NCBI GenBank assembly: GCA_025927765.1
Contig: JAICKU010000002.1
Coordinates: 51,853-115,852, forward strand
Length of the DNA: 64,000 bases
Direction of reading: 5' to 3'
From: Burkholderiales bacterium
Lineage (GTDB): Bacteria; Pseudomonadota; Gammaproteobacteria; Burkholderiales; Casimicrobiaceae
This document shows positions 34,175 through 64,000 of this stretch, one piece after another. The notes under the pieces were generated by a model, which ran no database searches, was not told the DNA's origin, and worked only from the letters and a program-made list of their open reading frames with translations. The translations under genes and the position numbers were made by a program. Within the stretch, counting starts at the first letter, position 1. Every line of letters begins with the position of its first letter.

Positions 34175-36468
34175 GGTTGGCGCTGTGCCTCGCGTTCGGG
34201 GAGATTCGCGTAGCTGTCGGCGGGATGCGTGCCGGGCTCGATGGTGACACAGGCGACGCGCCCGGTGTACGGCCACGCGCCGTTGCCTTCGTAGCGCTCG
34301 GTCACCGGCAGCTTGCGATCGACGCCGATGTCGAGCCCTTCGCCGACGCCAAGCCCCAGGATCGTCGTCGGTGACATATCGACCGTCGCGACGCGTTCGT
34401 CGTTCACCACGAGCGTGCCGCGGCCCCGTCGCGCGCCAAGCGCTTCGTGCCGCAGTTCGAAGCGATTCGTGCCGGCACGCACGCGCAACGCGTCGCTCGC
34501 CACCTCGCCGCCCTGCCCGCTCCGATACACGAACACGAGCGCGTCGCCGCGCGCGAAGAGCGCCAGGCCACCCAGGAGATCGCCGAGCGCGAAGAGCACG
34601 CCTTCGTCGCCCGGTTCGAACTCGAACGCGCAGGCGAGCCGATAGTCGCGGTCGTTGACGAGCGGCGCGACCACGCCGAGCGCGATCGTGCTGCCCGGAT
34701 GAAATGTGTGCGGTCGCGCATAGGCGCCCTCGAGAAACGGCGGCACCGTCAGCGAGCGGCGCACGCCGCGGTTGTCGAGCGGGTACACGTAATTCGCCTG
34801 CGCGTCGGCGTCGAACGCGGCGACGAGCTCGGCGAGCTTGTCCGGATGCGCCCTGGCGAGATCGTGCACTTCGGTGGCGTCGCACTCGAGGTCGAACAGC
34901 ATCCAGTTGTCGAGGTCGATGGCGCGCCCCGGCGGCTGCAGCGACACGATCTTCCAGCCGTTCTCGATATAGCCGCGATTGCCGGCGAGCTCGTAGTGCT
35001 GGCGCGAGCGCGCGCTCGTCGCATTCGCGCGCCGGAACAGCGCCTTCGCGCTGACACCATCGAGCGAGCGCGTGCGATAGCCGTTCAACGCCTCGGGATA
35101 GGGCTGACCGACGATGTCGAGGATCGTGGGCACGATGTCGGTCACGTGCAGCCACTGCTGCCGAATCGCGCCGCGCTCGGCGATGCCGCGCGGCCAGTGC
35201 GCGACGAACGGCACGCGGATGCCGCCGTTCATCGTCGTCGTCTTGTACAGGCGAAACGGCGCCGACGACACGTCCGTCCAGCCGAGCGGATACGCAGGCC
35301 ACGTTTCGGTCGCTCCCAACCGGCCGCTCGCCATCACGTCGCGCACGCGCTCGGGGTCCTCGCGTCCCGTCAGGCGCTTCGCGAGATTGTTGACCGCACC
35401 CTCGACGCCGCCGATGCCGTTCGCGCCGTTGTCGGAGGTGACGATGACGAGCGTGTTGTCGAGTCGCCCGAGCTTTTGCAGGCACGCCACGACGCGGCCG
35501 ACGTTCTGGTCGACGTTGTCGACGATCGCCGCATAGAGCTCCATGTAGCGCGCGTAGAGCGCACGCCGCTCCGCCGGCAATTCAGCCCAGGCCGGGACGC
35601 CGGGGCTGCGCGGTGCGACGGGCCATTCGCGCGCGAAGAGGCGCATCGCCTGCTGTCGCTCGCGGCGCGCATCGCGGAGCTCGTCCCATCCGCGGTCGTA
35701 CACGCCGCGATAGCGCACGAGGTCGGACGGCTTCGCCTGCAGCGGCGCGTGCGGCGCGTTGTACGGCAGGTACAGGAAGAACGGCTTGTCGCGCGACGAC
35801 GAGACGTGCGACGTGAGCCACGCCACGGCCTTGTCGGTCCAGTCGTCGGTGCAGTAGTAATCGCTCGCGTACGCGTCGCGGTCGACGATCGCGTTGTCCT
35901 CGAACAGCTGGAACGGCGAGAAGTAGTGCGTCTCGCCGCCGATGAAGCCGTAGAAGCGGTCGAAGCCGCGCGCGAGCGGCCACGACGCGCGCGACGCCGA
36001 CGCCGACACGTCGAAGTCGGCGGTGTTGTGCCACTTGCCGGCGCAGTAGGTCGCATAGCCGCTGCCGCGCAACAGTTCCGCGAGTGTGGGCGCATCGCGC
36101 GAAATCTCGCCCGCCTGATAACCGGGGTAGCCTGGCAGGTTGAAGGTGAGCCACCCGCAGCCGACCGCATGCGGGTTCTTGCCGGTCAAAAGCGCTGCAC
36201 GCGCGGGCGTGCACATCGGCACCGTCGTGTATTGCGAAAAGCGCAGGCCGTTGGCGGCGAGTGCGTCGATGTTCGGCGTGGCGATCTCGGCGCCGAAGCA
36301 GCCGACGTCGGAGAAGCCGAGGTCGTCGAGCAGCACGACGACGATGTCCGGCGAGCCGGCGCGCGCTTCGGGTCGCGGCGGCCACCACGGCGAGGACTCC
36401 TGCAGCGTGCGTCCGATCGTTCCCTGGTAACCCGCGCCCGGATCGCCGGAGGGCAACTTGTCGTCCAT
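34171..36468 (-). CDS. Type I formylglycine-dependent sulfatase (arylsulfatase-like)
   Basis: 765 residues. N-terminal metal ligands in DIVVVLLDDLGFSDVG; the FGly motif C-x-P-x-R is TTVPMCTPARAALLTGKNPH with Cys86 as the residue converted to formylglycine. Later metal and substrate contacts are CAGKWHN and VIVTSDNGANG. The last 200 or so residues form an extra beta-rich domain (FHPGSTIALGVVAPL onwards), common in long arylsulfatases. No signal peptide, so it should act in the cytoplasm on an imported sulfate ester. The start MDDKLPSGDPG (36468) overlaps the Bug receptor stop by one base. It needs a formylglycine-generating enzyme, which is not in this window. Confidence 0.92.
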   Translation of the reverse strand: MDDKLPSGDPGAGYQGTIGRTLQESSPWWPPRPEARAGSPDIVVVLLDDLGFSDVGCFGAEIATPNIDALAANGLRFSQYTTVPMCTPARAALLTGKNPHAVGCGWLTFNLPGYPGYQAGEISRDAPTLAELLRGSGYATYCAGKWHNTADFDVSASASRASWPLARGFDRFYGFIGGETHYFSPFQLFEDNAIVDRDAYASDYYCTDDWTDKAVAWLTSHVSSSRDKPFFLYLPYNAPHAPLQAKPSDLVRYRGVYDRGWDELRDARRERQQAMRLFAREWPVAPRSPGVPAWAELPAERRALYARYMELYAAIVDNVDQNVGRVVACLQKLGRLDNTLVIVTSDNGANGIGGVEGAVNNLAKRLTGREDPERVRDVMASGRLGATETWPAYPLGWTDVSSAPFRLYKTTTMNGGIRVPFVAHWPRGIAERGAIRQQWLHVTDIVPTILDIVGQPYPEALNGYRTRSLDGVSAKALFRRANATSARSRQHYELAGNRGYIENGWKIVSLQPPGRAIDLDNWMLFDLECDATEVHDLARAHPDKLAELVAAFDADAQANYVYPLDNRGVRRSLTVPPFLEGAYARPHTFHPGSTIALGVVAPLVNDRDYRLACAFEFEPGDEGVLFALGDLLGGLALFARGDALVFVYRSGQGGEVASDALRVRAGTNRFELRHEALGARRGRGTLVVNDERVATVDMSPTTILGLGVGEGLDIGVDRKLPVTERYEGNGAWPYTGRVACVTIEPGTHPADSYANLPEREAQRQP

Positions 36469-57837: not shown

Positions 57838-57930
57838 CGGTGCACGCACCGGTGATGCTTCGTGCGGACGCACGTAGAGCGCTGTTTGCACACACGCTTT
57901 GAGCCCCCGGGCCTGTGGAGCAAAAAAGCC

Positions 57931-57959
57931 TTGCACGGCCCCCGTTGGACTACTATGCT
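57931..57959 (+). promoter_or_regulatory. Predicted sigma-70 promoter of the nrd operon
   Basis: TTGCAC (57931-57936), 17-bp spacer, TATGCT (57954-57959), about 75 bases upstream of the nrdA ATG. It is overlapped by the first NrdR-box-like sequence and followed by the second. The 326-bp space from pdeM to nrdA otherwise holds only the DnaA-like boxes and GC-rich sequence with no further feature. Confidence 0.6.
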
Positions 57960-57996
57960 TTGTGCCGCGGTATCCGAACAGTACAAGATATAGTAG
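57948..57996. promoter_or_regulatory. Two NrdR-box-like sites at the nrd promoter
   Basis: GACTACTATGCTTTGTG (57948-57964) and ACAAGATATAGTAG (57983-57996) each resemble the NrdR consensus ACAC-w-ATATaTw-GTGT in its ATAT core and flanking ACA/GTG bases. Their centres are about 33 bases apart, three helical turns, the usual spacing of NrdR box pairs. Position over and after the -10 fits repression by NrdR-ATP/dATP. Confidence 0.55.
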
Positions 57997-58034
57997 GTTT
58001 CGATCCAAGACGCCCGGAACAAAGGAGACCCTCC

Positions 58035-61000
58035 ATGCGCATCGCCCCCGCTCCCACATCGTCCACCGCCACGCCTTTGCGCGACACGATTGCGGGAGAC
58101 CCGGGAGACGCGATGACGACTGCGGCCGATCCGCGCTTCGCGCAATTCAAGGTGATCCGACGCAACGGCGCGGTGGTGGGGTTCGAGCCCGCGAAAATCT
58201 CGATCGCGATGACCAAGGCGTTCCTCGCCGTCAACGGCGGGCACGGCGCCGGCTCCGCACGCGTGCGCGATACCGTGACGCGGCTCACCGAAGTGGTGGC
58301 GGCGGCGCTCATGAAGCGCAAGCCCGACGGCGGCGCGATCCACATCGAGGAGATCCAGGACCAGGTCGAGCTCGCGCTGATGCGCGGCGGCGAGCACGAG
58401 GTCGCGCGCGCCTACGTGCTGTACCGCGAAAAGCGCACGCAGGAGCGCCAGCAGAAGCAGCGTGAGTCGCAGAAGGCCGAGGACACCACGCTCCACGTCG
58501 TCGACGACGGCGTGCGCAAGCCGCTCGATTTCGACCGCCTCTCCGGCCTCGTCAACGCGTCCTGCGAGGGGCTCACCGACGTCGAGCCCAACCGCATCCT
58601 GAAGGCGACGCTCAAGGACCTCTACGACGGCGTGCCGATGGAGGAAGTACGCAAGTGCGTCGTGCTCGCCGCGCGCACGTTGATCGAGAAGGATCCGGCC
58701 TATTCGTATGTGACCGCGCGCCTGCTGCTCGACGCGCTGCGCTTCGAGGCGCTGGGCTTCGAAGCGACGCAGGCCGACATGGTCACGCAGTACGCCGAGT
58801 ACTTCCCGCAGTTCGTCAAGCACGGCATCAAGATCGGGCTTCTCAACGAAGCGCTCGCGAGCTTCGACCTCGCGCGTCTCGGCGCGGCGCTGAAGCCAGG
58901 GCGCGACCTGCAGTTCGGTTACCTCGGCCTGCAGACGCTCTACGACCGCTACTTCCTCGTCGACCAGTACGTCGGCGGGCGTCACTTCGAGCTGCCGCAG
59001 TGCTTCTTCATGCGCGTCGCGATGGGCCTCGCGCTGAACGAGATCGACCGCGAGGCGCGCGCGATCGAGTTCTACGACGTGCTGTCGACGTTCGACTTCA
59101 TGAGCTCGACGCCCACGCTCTTCAATTCGGGCACGCATCGGTCGCAGCTGTCGTCGTGCTACCTCACGACGGTCGCTGACGACCTGGACGGCATCTACGA
59201 GGCGATCAAGGAGAACGCGCTCCTCTCGAAGTTCGCGGGCGGCCTCGGCAACGACTGGACGAACGTCCGCGCGATGGGCTCGCACATCAAGGGCACCAAC
59301 GGCAAGTCGCAGGGCGTGGTGCCGTTCCTGAAGGTCGTCAACGACACCGCGGTCGCGGTCAACCAATGCTTCGCGCCCGACACGCCCGTGTACACCGCGC
59401 GCGGCGTGCTGCCCATCCGCCAGGTGCGCGAGGGCGACCTCGTGGTCGGCCAGAGCGGCGTGTATCGCGAAGTGATGGAGAAGCTCGTCTACGAGCAGAA
59501 GGACGCGATGGTCGCGATCGACGTCAAGCACACGATCGCACCCATCGAAGTCACCACAGGCCATCCGTTCTGGGCGCTGACCGGCGTGCCGCTCGAGCAG
59601 GCGAGCGGGCGCACGCACGAGTGGCTCGCGAAGGGCAAGGTGGCGCCGCGCTGGGTGGACGCGGGCGAACTGCGTGTCGGCGATTACGTCGGCTTCACGG
59701 TGCCGAACGAAACGGTGGCGGTCGACGGCCTCACCGAGGACGATGCGCGCCTGTACGGCATCCTGCTCGGCGATGGCCACGTGTCGAAGGATGGCCGGCA
59801 ATGGAGCGTGTCGGGCAACCCGCAGCGCGACGAGCATCTCGCGTTCGTGCGCGCGTACCTCAGCGCCCGTGGCGTGGCGTTCCACGAGGTGCAGCGCGGC
59901 GAGCGCCATGCGCAGATGCAGTGGGCCGCCGACATGGGCGTCGTGCGCGACGCGACCACCGGCCGCGTCGTCGACTCGGTGGCGCACACCCTCCCCTTCA
60001 CCTACGACGATCTCTACGACGCCGATCACCGCAAGCGCGTCGCGCCGCGCCTTGCGCACCTGCCGCGCCCGCACACGCGCGCGCTGCTGCGCGGTGTGCT
60101 CGAATCCGACGGCGGCGTGTCGCGCGGCACCGAGATCTACTTCACCACCGCGTCGGCGCCGCTCGCCGAAGGCGTGCGCTACCAGTGCCTGCGGCTCGGC
60201 GTGCCCGTCGCGGGCCAGCGTCGCCGTCGTGATCACGTCACCCGCCGCGATGGCGCAGCCACCTTCCGCGGTGCCACGACCTGCATCGACCTGCGCATTC
60301 CGGCGGTGCCGGAGATCGCCGAACTCGTCGGCTGCAAGCCGATCGCCAAGCGCAACTGGATCACGCTCGGCAACACGGTGTTTTCGCGCATTCGCGCGGT
60401 GCAGCCGATCACGCCGAAGCCGCTCGTCGTCGATTTGAAGGTCGACGCCGATGCGTCGTACCTGACGGCGTCGGGGCTCGCGCACAACGGCGGCAAGCGC
60501 AAGGGCGCGGTGTGCACGTACCTCGAGACGTGGCACCTCGACATCGAGGAGTTCCTCGAGCTGCGCAAGAACACCGGCGACGACCGGCGCCGCACGCACG
60601 ACATGAACACGGCGAACTGGATTCCAGACCTCTTCATGAAGCGCGTGATGGAAGGCGGCGAGTGGACGCTGTTCTCGCCGGCCGACGTGCCCGACCTGCA
60701 CGACAAGTGGGGCCGCGCGTTCGAGGACGCGTACGCGCGCTACGAGGACAAGGCCGCGCGCGGCGAGTTGAAGCTCCACAAGCGCATTCCCGCCGTGCAG
60801 TTGTGGCGAAAGATGCTGTCGATGCTGTTCGAGACCGGGCATCCGTGGATCACGTTCAAGGACGCCTGCAACGTGCGCTCGCCGCAGCAGCACGTGGGAA
60901 CCGTGCATAGCTCCAACCTCTGCACCGAGATCACGCTCAACACGAGCGCCACCGAAATTGCCGTCTGCAACCTGGGCTCGGTGAACCTGCTCGCGCACAT

Positions 61001-62063
61001 GCGCGAAGTCGACGGCCGCTTCGAGCTCGACCACGCGAAGTTGAAGCGCACGATCACGACCGCGATGCGCATGCTCGACAACGTGATCGACATCAACTAC
61101 TACGCGGTGCCGAAGGCGCGCAACTCGAACCTGCGGCATCGGCCGGTGGGCCTCGGCATCATGGGCTTCCAGGATTGCCTGCACGCGATGCGCGTGCCGT
61201 ATGCGTCGGACGAGGCGCTCGCGTTCGCCGACACGTCGATGGAAGCGGTGTGCTTCCACGCCTACTGGGCGTCGACGGAGCTGGCGGAGGAACGCGGACG
61301 TTACGCGTCGTACAAGGGCAGCCTCTGGGATCGCGGCATCCTGCCGCAGGACACGCTCGCGCTGCTGCGCGACGAGCGCGGCGGCTACGTCGAGATCGAC
61401 GAGGCGGCCACCCTCGACTGGGACGCGCTGCGCAAGCGCATCGGCGAGCACGGCATGCGCAACTCCAACTGCGTCGCGATCGCACCGACGGCGACGATTT
61501 CGAACATCATCGGCGTGGCCGCATCGATCGAGCCCGATTACCAGAACCTCTACGTCAAGTCGAACCTGTCGGGCGAGTTCACCGTGGTGAACGAGCAGCT
61601 CGTTCGCGACTTGAAGGCGCGCAATCTGTGGGACGACGTGATGGTGTCGGACTTGAAGTACTTCGACGGCTCGCTCGCGAAGATCGACCGCATCCCGCCG
61701 GAGCTGCGCGCGTTGTATGCAACGGCGTTCGAAGTCGAGCCTGCGTGGATCGTCGAGGCCGGTGCGCGGCGCCAGAAGTGGATCGATCAGGCGCAGAGCC
61801 TCAACATCTACATGTCGGGCGTATCCGGCAAGAAGCTCGACGAAACGTACAAGCTCGCATGGCAGCGCGGCCTCAAGACCACCTACTACCTGCGCTCGCT
61901 CGGCGCGACATCGGCCGAGAAGTCGACGGGCCGCGGCGGCGAGCTCAATGCGGTGGCCGCGTCGGCGCCGGCGATCACGGCCGCGCCCGCGGCCGTAGCC
62001 GCGGAGCCGGCCGAGCCGAAGTTCTGCTCGATCGACAATCCCGAGTGCGAGGCGTGCCAGTAG
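58035..62063 (+). CDS. nrdA: Ribonucleoside-diphosphate reductase alpha subunit, class Ia, interrupted by an intein
   Basis: 1342 residues as translated; 968 if the intein (residues 445-818) is removed. The start at 58035 has AAAGGAGA in good position; the ORF track start at 57915 lies in the leader. It reduces ribonucleoside diphosphates with NrdB. Order: N-terminal ATP-cone (FKVIRRNGAVVGFEPAKISI) that binds ATP/dATP for activity control; ten-stranded barrel with the first redox Cys in HRSQLSSCYLTTV (Cys375); intein between VNQ and GGKRKG; then HSSNLCTEITLNTS (thiyl Cys), EIAVCNLGSVNL (second redox Cys), the NTP-site loops RHRPVGLGIMGFQD, and NCVAIAPTATISNI. The C-terminal redox tail is DNPECEACQ. 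Apart from the insertion all catalytic residues are present. Confidence 0.96.
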   Translation: MRIAPAPTSSTATPLRDTIAGDPGDAMTTAADPRFAQFKVIRRNGAVVGFEPAKISIAMTKAFLAVNGGHGAGSARVRDTVTRLTEVVAAALMKRKPDGGAIHIEEIQDQVELALMRGGEHEVARAYVLYREKRTQERQQKQRESQKAEDTTLHVVDDGVRKPLDFDRLSGLVNASCEGLTDVEPNRILKATLKDLYDGVPMEEVRKCVVLAARTLIEKDPAYSYVTARLLLDALRFEALGFEATQADMVTQYAEYFPQFVKHGIKIGLLNEALASFDLARLGAALKPGRDLQFGYLGLQTLYDRYFLVDQYVGGRHFELPQCFFMRVAMGLALNEIDREARAIEFYDVLSTFDFMSSTPTLFNSGTHRSQLSSCYLTTVADDLDGIYEAIKENALLSKFAGGLGNDWTNVRAMGSHIKGTNGKSQGVVPFLKVVNDTAVAVNQCFAPDTPVYTARGVLPIRQVREGDLVVGQSGVYREVMEKLVYEQKDAMVAIDVKHTIAPIEVTTGHPFWALTGVPLEQASGRTHEWLAKGKVAPRWVDAGELRVGDYVGFTVPNETVAVDGLTEDDARLYGILLGDGHVSKDGRQWSVSGNPQRDEHLAFVRAYLSARGVAFHEVQRGERHAQMQWAADMGVVRDATTGRVVDSVAHTLPFTYDDLYDADHRKRVAPRLAHLPRPHTRALLRGVLESDGGVSRGTEIYFTTASAPLAEGVRYQCLRLGVPVAGQRRRRDHVTRRDGAATFRGATTCIDLRIPAVPEIAELVGCKPIAKRNWITLGNTVFSRIRAVQPITPKPLVVDLKVDADASYLTASGLAHNGGKRKGAVCTYLETWHLDIEEFLELRKNTGDDRRRTHDMNTANWIPDLFMKRVMEGGEWTLFSPADVPDLHDKWGRAFEDAYARYEDKAARGELKLHKRIPAVQLWRKMLSMLFETGHPWITFKDACNVRSPQQHVGTVHSSNLCTEITLNTSATEIAVCNLGSVNLLAHMREVDGRFELDHAKLKRTITTAMRMLDNVIDINYYAVPKARNSNLRHRPVGLGIMGFQDCLHAMRVPYASDEALAFADTSMEAVCFHAYWASTELAEERGRYASYKGSLWDRGILPQDTLALLRDERGGYVEIDEAATLDWDALRKRIGEHGMRNSNCVAIAPTATISNIIGVAASIEPDYQNLYVKSNLSGEFTVVNEQLVRDLKARNLWDDVMVSDLKYFDGSLAKIDRIPPELRALYATAFEVEPAWIVEAGARRQKWIDQAQSLNIYMSGVSGKKLDETYKLAWQRGLKTTYYLRSLGATSAEKSTGRGGELNAVAASAPAITAAPAAVAAEPAEPKFCSIDNPECEACQ
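59367..60488 (+). mobile_element. Intein with LAGLIDADG homing endonuclease inside NrdA
   Basis: 374 in-frame residues from Cys to Asn, inserted between VNQ and GGKRKG of NrdA. Intein blocks in order: A, CFAPDTPVYTARGVLPIRQV, with the nucleophilic Cys1; B, IEVTTGHPFWAL, with the TxxH motif; endonuclease motif 1, LYGILLGDGHVS; motif 2, LLRGVLESDGGVS; a block H-like LAEGVRYQCLRLGVP; F, VVDLKVDADASYLTASG; and G, LAHN at the end with penultimate His and terminal Asn. Both LAGLIDADG aspartates are kept, so the endonuclease could be active. The next residue is Gly instead of Cys, Ser or Thr. Base composition matches the host gene, arguing for an old or well-adapted insertion. Confidence 0.92.
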
Positions 62064-62086
62064 CGACCTCCGTACGGCGCGCAGCG

Positions 62087-62848
62087 ATGACGGCGGCCCT
62101 CGCCCTGTCGATTGCACCGGAGGTGCAATCGGAGGCGCTTCGCGAGCGCGTGCAGGTGCTCGAATCGCGCTCCGGCGTGCGCGAGGTGCTGCTCGTCACC
62201 GAGGCCTGCGCGCCCGACGCGCGCGAGCAGCACGTGGTGATCGTGCTGGGCGGCGCGGGCGGTGGCTTCGCCGTCGTCTCGCACGACGGCCTGCCTCATG
62301 TGTATGGCGGCCTGCCGCTCGAGCAGCGGCAACGCCTCGCCAATGCGATCAACGGCGCAGTGATTGCGCTGTCGCCGCCGTCCGACCAGCCGGTGATGGA
62401 TCGCGACTGGCGGCTGTCGAACCAACACGTGTGCGACCTGCAGGCTGCCGTGCACTGGGCGCGCGCGCAATGGCCGGACGCGAAGACGTGGGTGCTCGGC
62501 ATGAACAACGGCGCGCTGTCGGCGGCGGTGGCGACCGCGAGCATCGACGACCTCGCCGGCGCGGTGCTGCTGTCGTGCGTCGACGAAGCACTCGACCAGC
62601 CGCAAAAATCCGAGCGCATGCGCGTGCTGGCCGTGCGTCACCGCGCAGTGGCGGCGAGTGCGCATGCCGGCGTTGCGAACTGCGCGCGGCGGACGCTCGT
62701 CCGCGTGCACGACGAGCGCCGCGCGGCCGTGCATGCGCTCGGCCGCGACCCGGTGCAGGCGCCGCACTTCAATGGCAAGGAACGGCAGGTCGTGGACGTC
62801 GTCGCGCGGTGGATCGTGACCGGCGACGCGCCCGACGAGATTCGGTGA
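62087..62848 (+). CDS. Protein of unknown function, alpha/beta-hydrolase-like
   Basis: 253 residues, start ATG 62087, 23 bp after nrdA. I do not recognise a family. A central VVIVLGGAGGGFAVV and the segment TWVLGMNNGALSAAVATASI resemble an alpha/beta-hydrolase nucleophile elbow (G-x-S-x-G) with Asn in place of Ser. A late His (VQAPHFNGKERQVVDVVARW) is where a catalytic His would fall. Together these suggest a hydrolase-fold protein without the usual nucleophile. It lies between nrdA and nrdB on the same strand and is probably co-transcribed with nrdA. Confidence 0.6.
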   Translation: MTAALALSIAPEVQSEALRERVQVLESRSGVREVLLVTEACAPDAREQHVVIVLGGAGGGFAVVSHDGLPHVYGGLPLEQRQRLANAINGAVIALSPPSDQPVMDRDWRLSNQHVCDLQAAVHWARAQWPDAKTWVLGMNNGALSAAVATASIDDLAGAVLLSCVDEALDQPQKSERMRVLAVRHRAVAASAHAGVANCARRTLVRVHDERRAAVHALGRDPVQAPHFNGKERQVVDVVARWIVTGDAPDEIR

Positions 62849-63483: not shown

Positions 63484-64000
63484 ATGCTGAGTTTCGACGA
63501 CGACCTTGCCGCCGCGCCCGCCCCTCGCGCAACGCCCCTGCCCGCGCCCATGCCGCGGACAGGCGCCGCGGGCATCGCGAGCGCGCGCGCGACGACCGAT
63601 GCGCCGAGCGCCCACGCCGATGCGACACCCTCGGCGTTCCGCCGCGTGCGCGTCGAGGACAAGCGCGTGATCAATGGGCAGGCCGACGTCAACCAGCTCG
63701 TCCCGTTCAAGTACAAGTGGGCGTGGGACAAGTACCTCGCGGGCTGCGCGAACCACTGGATGCCGCAGGAAATCAACATGCAGCGCGACATCGAGCTGTG
63801 GAAGAATCCGGCGGGCCTCACCGACGACGAACGGCTCATCGTCAAGCGCAACCTCGGCTTCTTCGTCACCGCCGACAGTCTCGCGGCGAACAACATCGTG
63901 CTCGGCACGTATCGCCACATCTGCGCGCCCGAGTGCCGGCAGTACCTGCTGCGCCAGGCGTTCGAGGAGGCGATCCACACGCACGCCTACCAGTACATCG
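63484..64000 (+). CDS. nrdB: Ribonucleoside-diphosphate reductase beta subunit, N-terminal part
   Basis: The first 172 codons are in the window; the gene runs off the right edge, which is why the ORF track lacks it. It begins [18 protein letters not shown] at an ATG (63484) 76 bp after DUF2442. The first about 55 residues are an Ala/Pro-rich extension before the conserved [20 protein letters not shown]. Iron-ligand region: Glu and His in [16 protein letters not shown]. It forms the diiron-tyrosyl radical partner of NrdA; the radical Tyr region lies past the window's visible start of that helix. Identity is clear from sequence and from linkage to nrdA. Confidence 0.95.

Follow-up and report, generated by a model that had tools for sequence, protein, structure and literature searches.

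The class I ribonucleotide reductase (RNR) gene nrdA in the window, which is the whole stretch of 64,000 nucleotides that was analysed, is interrupted by an intein whose terminal Asn is directly followed by glycine. RNR is central to the synthesis of DNA precursors. We propose, with a probability of about 0.64, that this mobile homing intein, seated at the glycine site of loop 2, still yields active ligated NrdA without Cys, Ser or Thr at the +1 position. In the standard splicing path, steps 2 and 4 need one of these three residues at +1 (PMC4031507), and efficient splicing by a route of the bacterial intein-like (BIL) type would be unusual. The original prediction had left the choice between unusual splicing and cleaved halves that reassociate; the sequence evidence leans to splicing.

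The intein and its junction

On the plus strand, 57915-62063 is a single stop-free open frame that encodes the interrupted class I NrdA. The gene, for the large subunit, was placed at 58113-62063 (+) from the ATG at 58113, with another ATG at 58035; a spliced product of 942 residues corresponds to the former start and one of 968 residues to the latter. Its product matched the Pfam domains ATP-cone, Ribonuc_red_lgN and Ribonuc_red_lgC as well as the NCBIfam model PRK07207 (1732 bits). An ORF that starts at 63484 and runs off the window (63484-64000, +) was assigned as a putative nrdB by its sequence and its position in the ORF list.

The intein occupies frame residues 485-858 (374 aa; 59367-60488, +). 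Its N-terminus reads CFAPDTPVYT and its C-terminus SGLAHN, and the full junction is VNQ/CFAP...GLAHN/GGKRKG, in which the slashes mark the intein ends. The codons CAC AAC GGC GGC at 60483-60494 specify His-Asn/Gly-Gly within the NrdA frame, and those after the intein (GGC GGC AAG CGC AAG GGC) specify Gly-Gly-Lys-Arg-Lys-Gly. In the genus, family and order of the window's organism, 30 intein-free NrdA loci read NDTAVAVNQGGKRKGAVC ungapped, with VNQGGKRKG uninterrupted at the insertion site (n = 30). The intein ends in Asn but is preceded by Gln, so that the boundary cannot slide. On sequence grounds, VNQ/C...HN/GG is the sole cut that restores native NrdA, with Gly at +1, and a shifted boundary was ruled out. 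The junction originally predicted, GLAHN followed by GGKRKG, is therefore the one borne out by these 30 relatives.

The Pfam model LAGLIDADG_3 scored above its cut-off on the insert and Hint_2 just below it. The two LAGLIDADG motifs were read from the sequence as LYGILLGDGHV (59751-59783, +) and LLRGVLESDGG (60084-60116, +). An AlphaFold model of the intein, with 20 aligned precursors as input, reached a pLDDT of 81.5 and a pTM of 0.83 and matched PI-SceI (E 3e-19) and TliVMA (E 1e-18); the best PDB sequence match was the BIL domain 2lwy, a weak one (E 0.012). Judged by its in-frame position, its exact boundaries, its absence from close relatives and its predicted Hint and LAGLIDADG parts, the insert is an intein.

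Conservation of the +1 glycine in loop 2

The alignment set comprised 44 distinct full-length inteins from 44 genomes (23 Burkholderiales and 21 Thiotrichaceae), with relatives from the genus and family of the window's organism and from the wider order. As read from this alignment, at least 44 bacterial genomes share the arrangement. Named genomes with relatives include Giesbergeria anulus, Simplicispira psychrophila, Macromonas bipunctata and Thiothrix lacustris, and in the Thiothrix family relatives were present in 22 of 63 genomes. All 44 inteins occupied the same site, with Gln at -1 and Gly at both +1 and +2 (60489-60494, +, in the QGGKRKG of loop 2). The predicted lack of Cys, Ser or Thr at +1 thus held in every NrdA intein aligned at this insertion site. 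All four glycine codons were used at +1 (GGC 25, GGT 10, GGA 5, GGG 4), and a sequencing error at Gly+1 is excluded by the 44 concordant genomes.

Five residues of the intein were invariant in the 44 copies, namely Cys1, the first nucleophile (59367-59369, +), Thr63 and His66 of block B (Thr63-x-x-His66, 59553-59564, +), Asp356 at position F:4 of block F (60432-60434, +) and the terminal Asn374. The penultimate His373, which together with Asn374 lies at 60483-60488 (+), was present in 43/44, the exception being G510 with Ser. Within the splicing part, the only invariant Cys, Ser or Thr residues were C1, T10, T63, S340, S364 and T367. The copy in G510 (L141) was the most divergent one; besides its penultimate Ser, it has His in block F where most copies have Glu or Ala.

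In alignments with solved R1 structures, 5im3 among them, the junction falls on the loop 2 QGG. In the E. coli enzyme, loop 2 consists of residues 292-301, of which Gln294 and Arg298 link the effector to the substrate and set specificity, and the Arg298Ala variant has negligible activity (PMC4728125). Since the loop 2 glycine probably cannot readily change to suit an intein, every copy would face the same +1 problem.

Other RNRs in the intein-bearing genomes

RNR genes were searched with PF02867 for class I/II, PF13597 for class III and TIGR02505 for monomeric class II. In the window's genome, a second RNR, the class II enzyme NrdJ, was found at G000:C7:49794-52493, and NrdD was not found. NrdA need not be essential in this genome, and since NrdJ is present, dependence on NrdA cannot be argued from the window's strain alone. 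This NrdJ (locus L002 1225-5319, G000:C7) carries an intein of its own, which reads ATNP/CVTADTW...LLVHN/CGEQ with a standard Cys at +1.

In 19 other intein-bearing genomes, however, no RNR besides NrdA was found with PF02867 and PF13597 or with TIGR02505 above its cut-off; the weak TIGR02505 matches were all within NrdA and below the cut-off. These genomes were G006 and G008 from the window's genus, Macromonas bipunctata (G102), Thiothrix lacustris (G105), Sphaerotilus (G107), Comamonas (G108) and 13 from the Thiothrix family (G472, G480, G485, G497, G498, G499, G501, G504, G508, G509, G513, G517 and G518). Drafts can miss genes; two of the 19 are near-complete, G509 with a 3.25-Mb contig out of 3.3 Mb and G518 with 4.26 Mb out of 4.4 Mb. 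The original prediction had made the need for active NrdA conditional on there being no other reductase. That dependence cannot be claimed for the window's strain, where the search for a second RNR returned NrdJ, but it can for the 19 genomes. The single-contig genome G272 has an anaerobic NrdD as well, but no class I/II enzyme other than NrdA. An NrdD match in G515 (G515:C1:2201790-2203586) contains one in-frame TGA, and this anaerobic RNR may be broken or misread.

Selection, endonuclease decay and mobility

In the Burkholderiales, the median pairwise dN/dS of the junction-flanking NrdA parts was 0.16 with the intein and 0.162 in the intein-free enzymes; around the junction in the Thiothrix family it was 0.038. 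The NrdA parts are under the same constraint with the intein as in the intein-free relatives. Their catalytic Cys motifs are present, and the 15 residues on each side of the junction are identical or nearly so to those of the intein-free enzymes. The Hint parts are also constrained and under purifying selection.

In at least two cases, decay of the endonuclease has left the splicing blocks in place. Between the Sphaerotilus copy L034 (309 aa) and L019, the dN/dS of HintN was 0.089 and the amino acids of HintC were identical, whereas the endonuclease was 72% identical and had a deletion. The LAGLIDADG catalytic aspartates are gone from L142 and L143 (315 aa; genomes G508 and G518), and the motifs of another copy, L032, are degenerate. 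The searches gave no other RNR in G107, G508 and G518, which carry decayed endonucleases. If selection acts for a working host protein, a selfish element is expected to keep its splicing domain intact even after it has ceased to home. Because NrdA is the sole RNR found in 19 genomes, the exteins are constrained and the endonuclease-decayed copies keep their splicing blocks, active NrdA must be made.

The NrdA flanks of G510 and Thiothrix lacustris are 98% identical, but their inteins only 49.5%, and G510 is placed differently in the intein tree and the extein tree. Judged by these comparisons, the intein has been acquired independently at the same glycine site, which is horizontal transfer. 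No close relative was found in viral contigs, phages or plasmids, where the only matches covered part of the intein at ~23-31% identity, and a phage or plasmid reservoir was rejected.

Several further inteins and Hint domains were seen. The third intein of the window's genome (L113; G000:C141, near 34881-35276) lies in a DnaB-like replicative helicase and ends in VSHN/SGAIEQDADVIV, with Ser at +1. Macromonas bipunctata (L027) and Sphaerotilus (L034) have a second NrdA intein at the active-site cysteine, SSNLC/CMTADQ...LITKN/TEITLN, with Thr at +1. Other Burkholderiales ORFs (L098, L102 and L110) contain Hint domains with a C-terminal HN that resemble BIL/pretoxin Hint domains.

Proposed splicing route and its alternatives

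We infer that ligation takes place, and likewise in what order and by what chemistry its steps proceed. In step 1, Cys1, aided by Thr63, His66 and Asp356, would form a thioester with Gln(-1) and so take up the N-extein. Transesterification would be absent from step 2, because Gly+1 has no side-chain nucleophile. In step 3, cyclisation of Asn374 would release the C-extein, and the Hint fold, together with the NrdA barrel as it folds, would keep its N-terminal Gly-Gly amine in place. The unhindered Gly amine would then attack the thioester directly in step 4 and so make the loop 2 peptide bond between Gln and Gly. Glycine has the least hindered alpha-amine. Since Cys1 and Asn374 are invariant and the +1 nucleophile is absent, aminolysis appears to be the simplest path. 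The path proposed for type A BILs likewise begins with a thioester, which the amine freed by Asn cyclisation then attacks (PMC4031507), and the BIL-like direct aminolysis that had been suggested for the window's intein stands as a candidate route. In known type A BILs, cleavage products predominate (PMC4031507, PMC7664689). Since BILs mostly cleave, the steps would have to be coupled better in the NrdA intein, perhaps through folding of the NrdA barrel.

The main rival to ligation is that the intein only cleaves, in which case hydrolysis of the Cys1 thioester and cyclisation of Asn would leave two NrdA pieces that reassemble into an active nicked enzyme. Cleavage is the default when the +1 residue is not a nucleophile (PMC7664689) and would likewise preserve Cys1, His and Asn. 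The two-polypeptide NrdA of phage Aeh1 has been reported to be fully functional (PMC2988022), and by analogy with this split enzyme ligation may not be strictly needed. However, the nick would fall inside loop 2, between the substrate-positioning Gln and the Gly (PMC4728125), nothing in the 15-residue flanks points to adaptation to a nick and the exteins have an unchanged dN/dS. We consider a nicked enzyme unlikely.

It also counts against ligation by the glycine amine that Ser340, Ser364 or Thr367, judged from their conservation, could substitute as the nucleophile. A branched intermediate on one of these internal residues would amount to a class 3-like relay with Cys1 retained. All three are invariant in the 44 inteins, down to ~45% identity, but F:4 is Asp in 44/44 and no Cys is invariant except Cys1. 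Polar residues at the positions of Ser364 and Thr367 occur in ordinary inteins too, which counts against an internal relay, and we regard it as rather improbable. The NrdJ of the window's genome would fit a dead intein, with NrdA a decaying pseudogene in a cell that lives on another RNR. However, the frame and the catalytic residues are kept, the extein and Hint parts are under purifying selection and the 19 intein-bearing genomes yielded no other RNR; a dead NrdA was rejected on the purifying selection and the RNR searches and has very little probability. Removal of the insert at the RNA level, or another protein boundary that puts a nucleophile at the junction, is of negligible probability, and no supporting point for either was found. 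An RNA intron was rejected, since 57900-62100 gave no Rfam match and the frame stays open and under codon constraint along its whole length, and one boundary alone restores VNQGGKRKG.

In several bacteria, the apparently sole RNR thus contains a natural intein without a +1 nucleophile. This leaves two options, both of them surprising: efficient ligation without a nucleophile, which is the preferred reading, or an RNR that works with a nicked specificity loop. Cultured strains of Thiothrix lacustris and Macromonas bipunctata are available for direct testing. If the intein ligates onto plain Gly-Gly, no Cys/Ser/Thr scar would be left, which would be useful for protein engineering. No report of a Gly+1 intein in NrdA was found in the literature searched, whose partial coverage makes this weak evidence of absence.

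Comparison with known systems

Among the class 1 features given in reviews, the NrdA intein lacks the +1 nucleophile only. It has the Cys at position 1, the block B Thr and His and the terminal Asn, all invariant (n = 44), but Gly instead of Cys, Ser or Thr at +1 in 44/44. With class 1 LAGLIDADG inteins (PI-SceI, TliVMA and those in NrdJ and DnaB of the same genome), it shares Cys1, the block B Thr/His, the block F Asp and the terminal His-Asn, as well as a Hint fold with an inserted LAGLIDADG domain, a patchy distribution and horizontal spread; with Gly at +1, however, step 2 cannot give rise to a branched intermediate. Class 2 inteins such as Mja KlbA also depart from the four-step path, but they have Ala1 in place of Cys1 and need Cys+1, which is the reverse of the NrdA intein, and class 2 was rejected on the Cys1 and Gly+1 of all 44 copies. 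Class 3 inteins likewise use a non-standard route, but they are without Cys1 and use a Cys at F:4; the NrdA intein is the opposite, with Cys1 invariant and Asp356 at F:4, and class 3 was rejected.

In phage Aeh1, an endonuclease gene also interrupts class I NrdA with function kept, but there the insertion of mobE has given two separate genes without an intein (PMC2988022). Type A BILs, of which 2lwy is an example, share with the NrdA intein Cys1, a C-terminal His-Asn, the absence of a +1 nucleophile and the proposed thioester aminolysis (PMC4031507). BIL domains are found in hypervariable, non-conserved proteins (PMC7765530), whereas the NrdA intein sits at a fixed loop 2 site of an essential enzyme in 44 genomes, has an endonuclease and must yield a working enzyme; it resembles type A BILs in chemistry, not in setting. 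Its structure is that of a LAGLIDADG homing intein; by chemistry, it departs from class 1 at +1 and belongs to neither class 2 nor class 3. We are inclined to regard it as a distinct intein lineage that ligates efficiently by attack of the Gly amine on the Cys1 thioester, with a sortase-like last step, and supplies the sole RNR, and hence as a fourth mechanistic class beside the three known ones.
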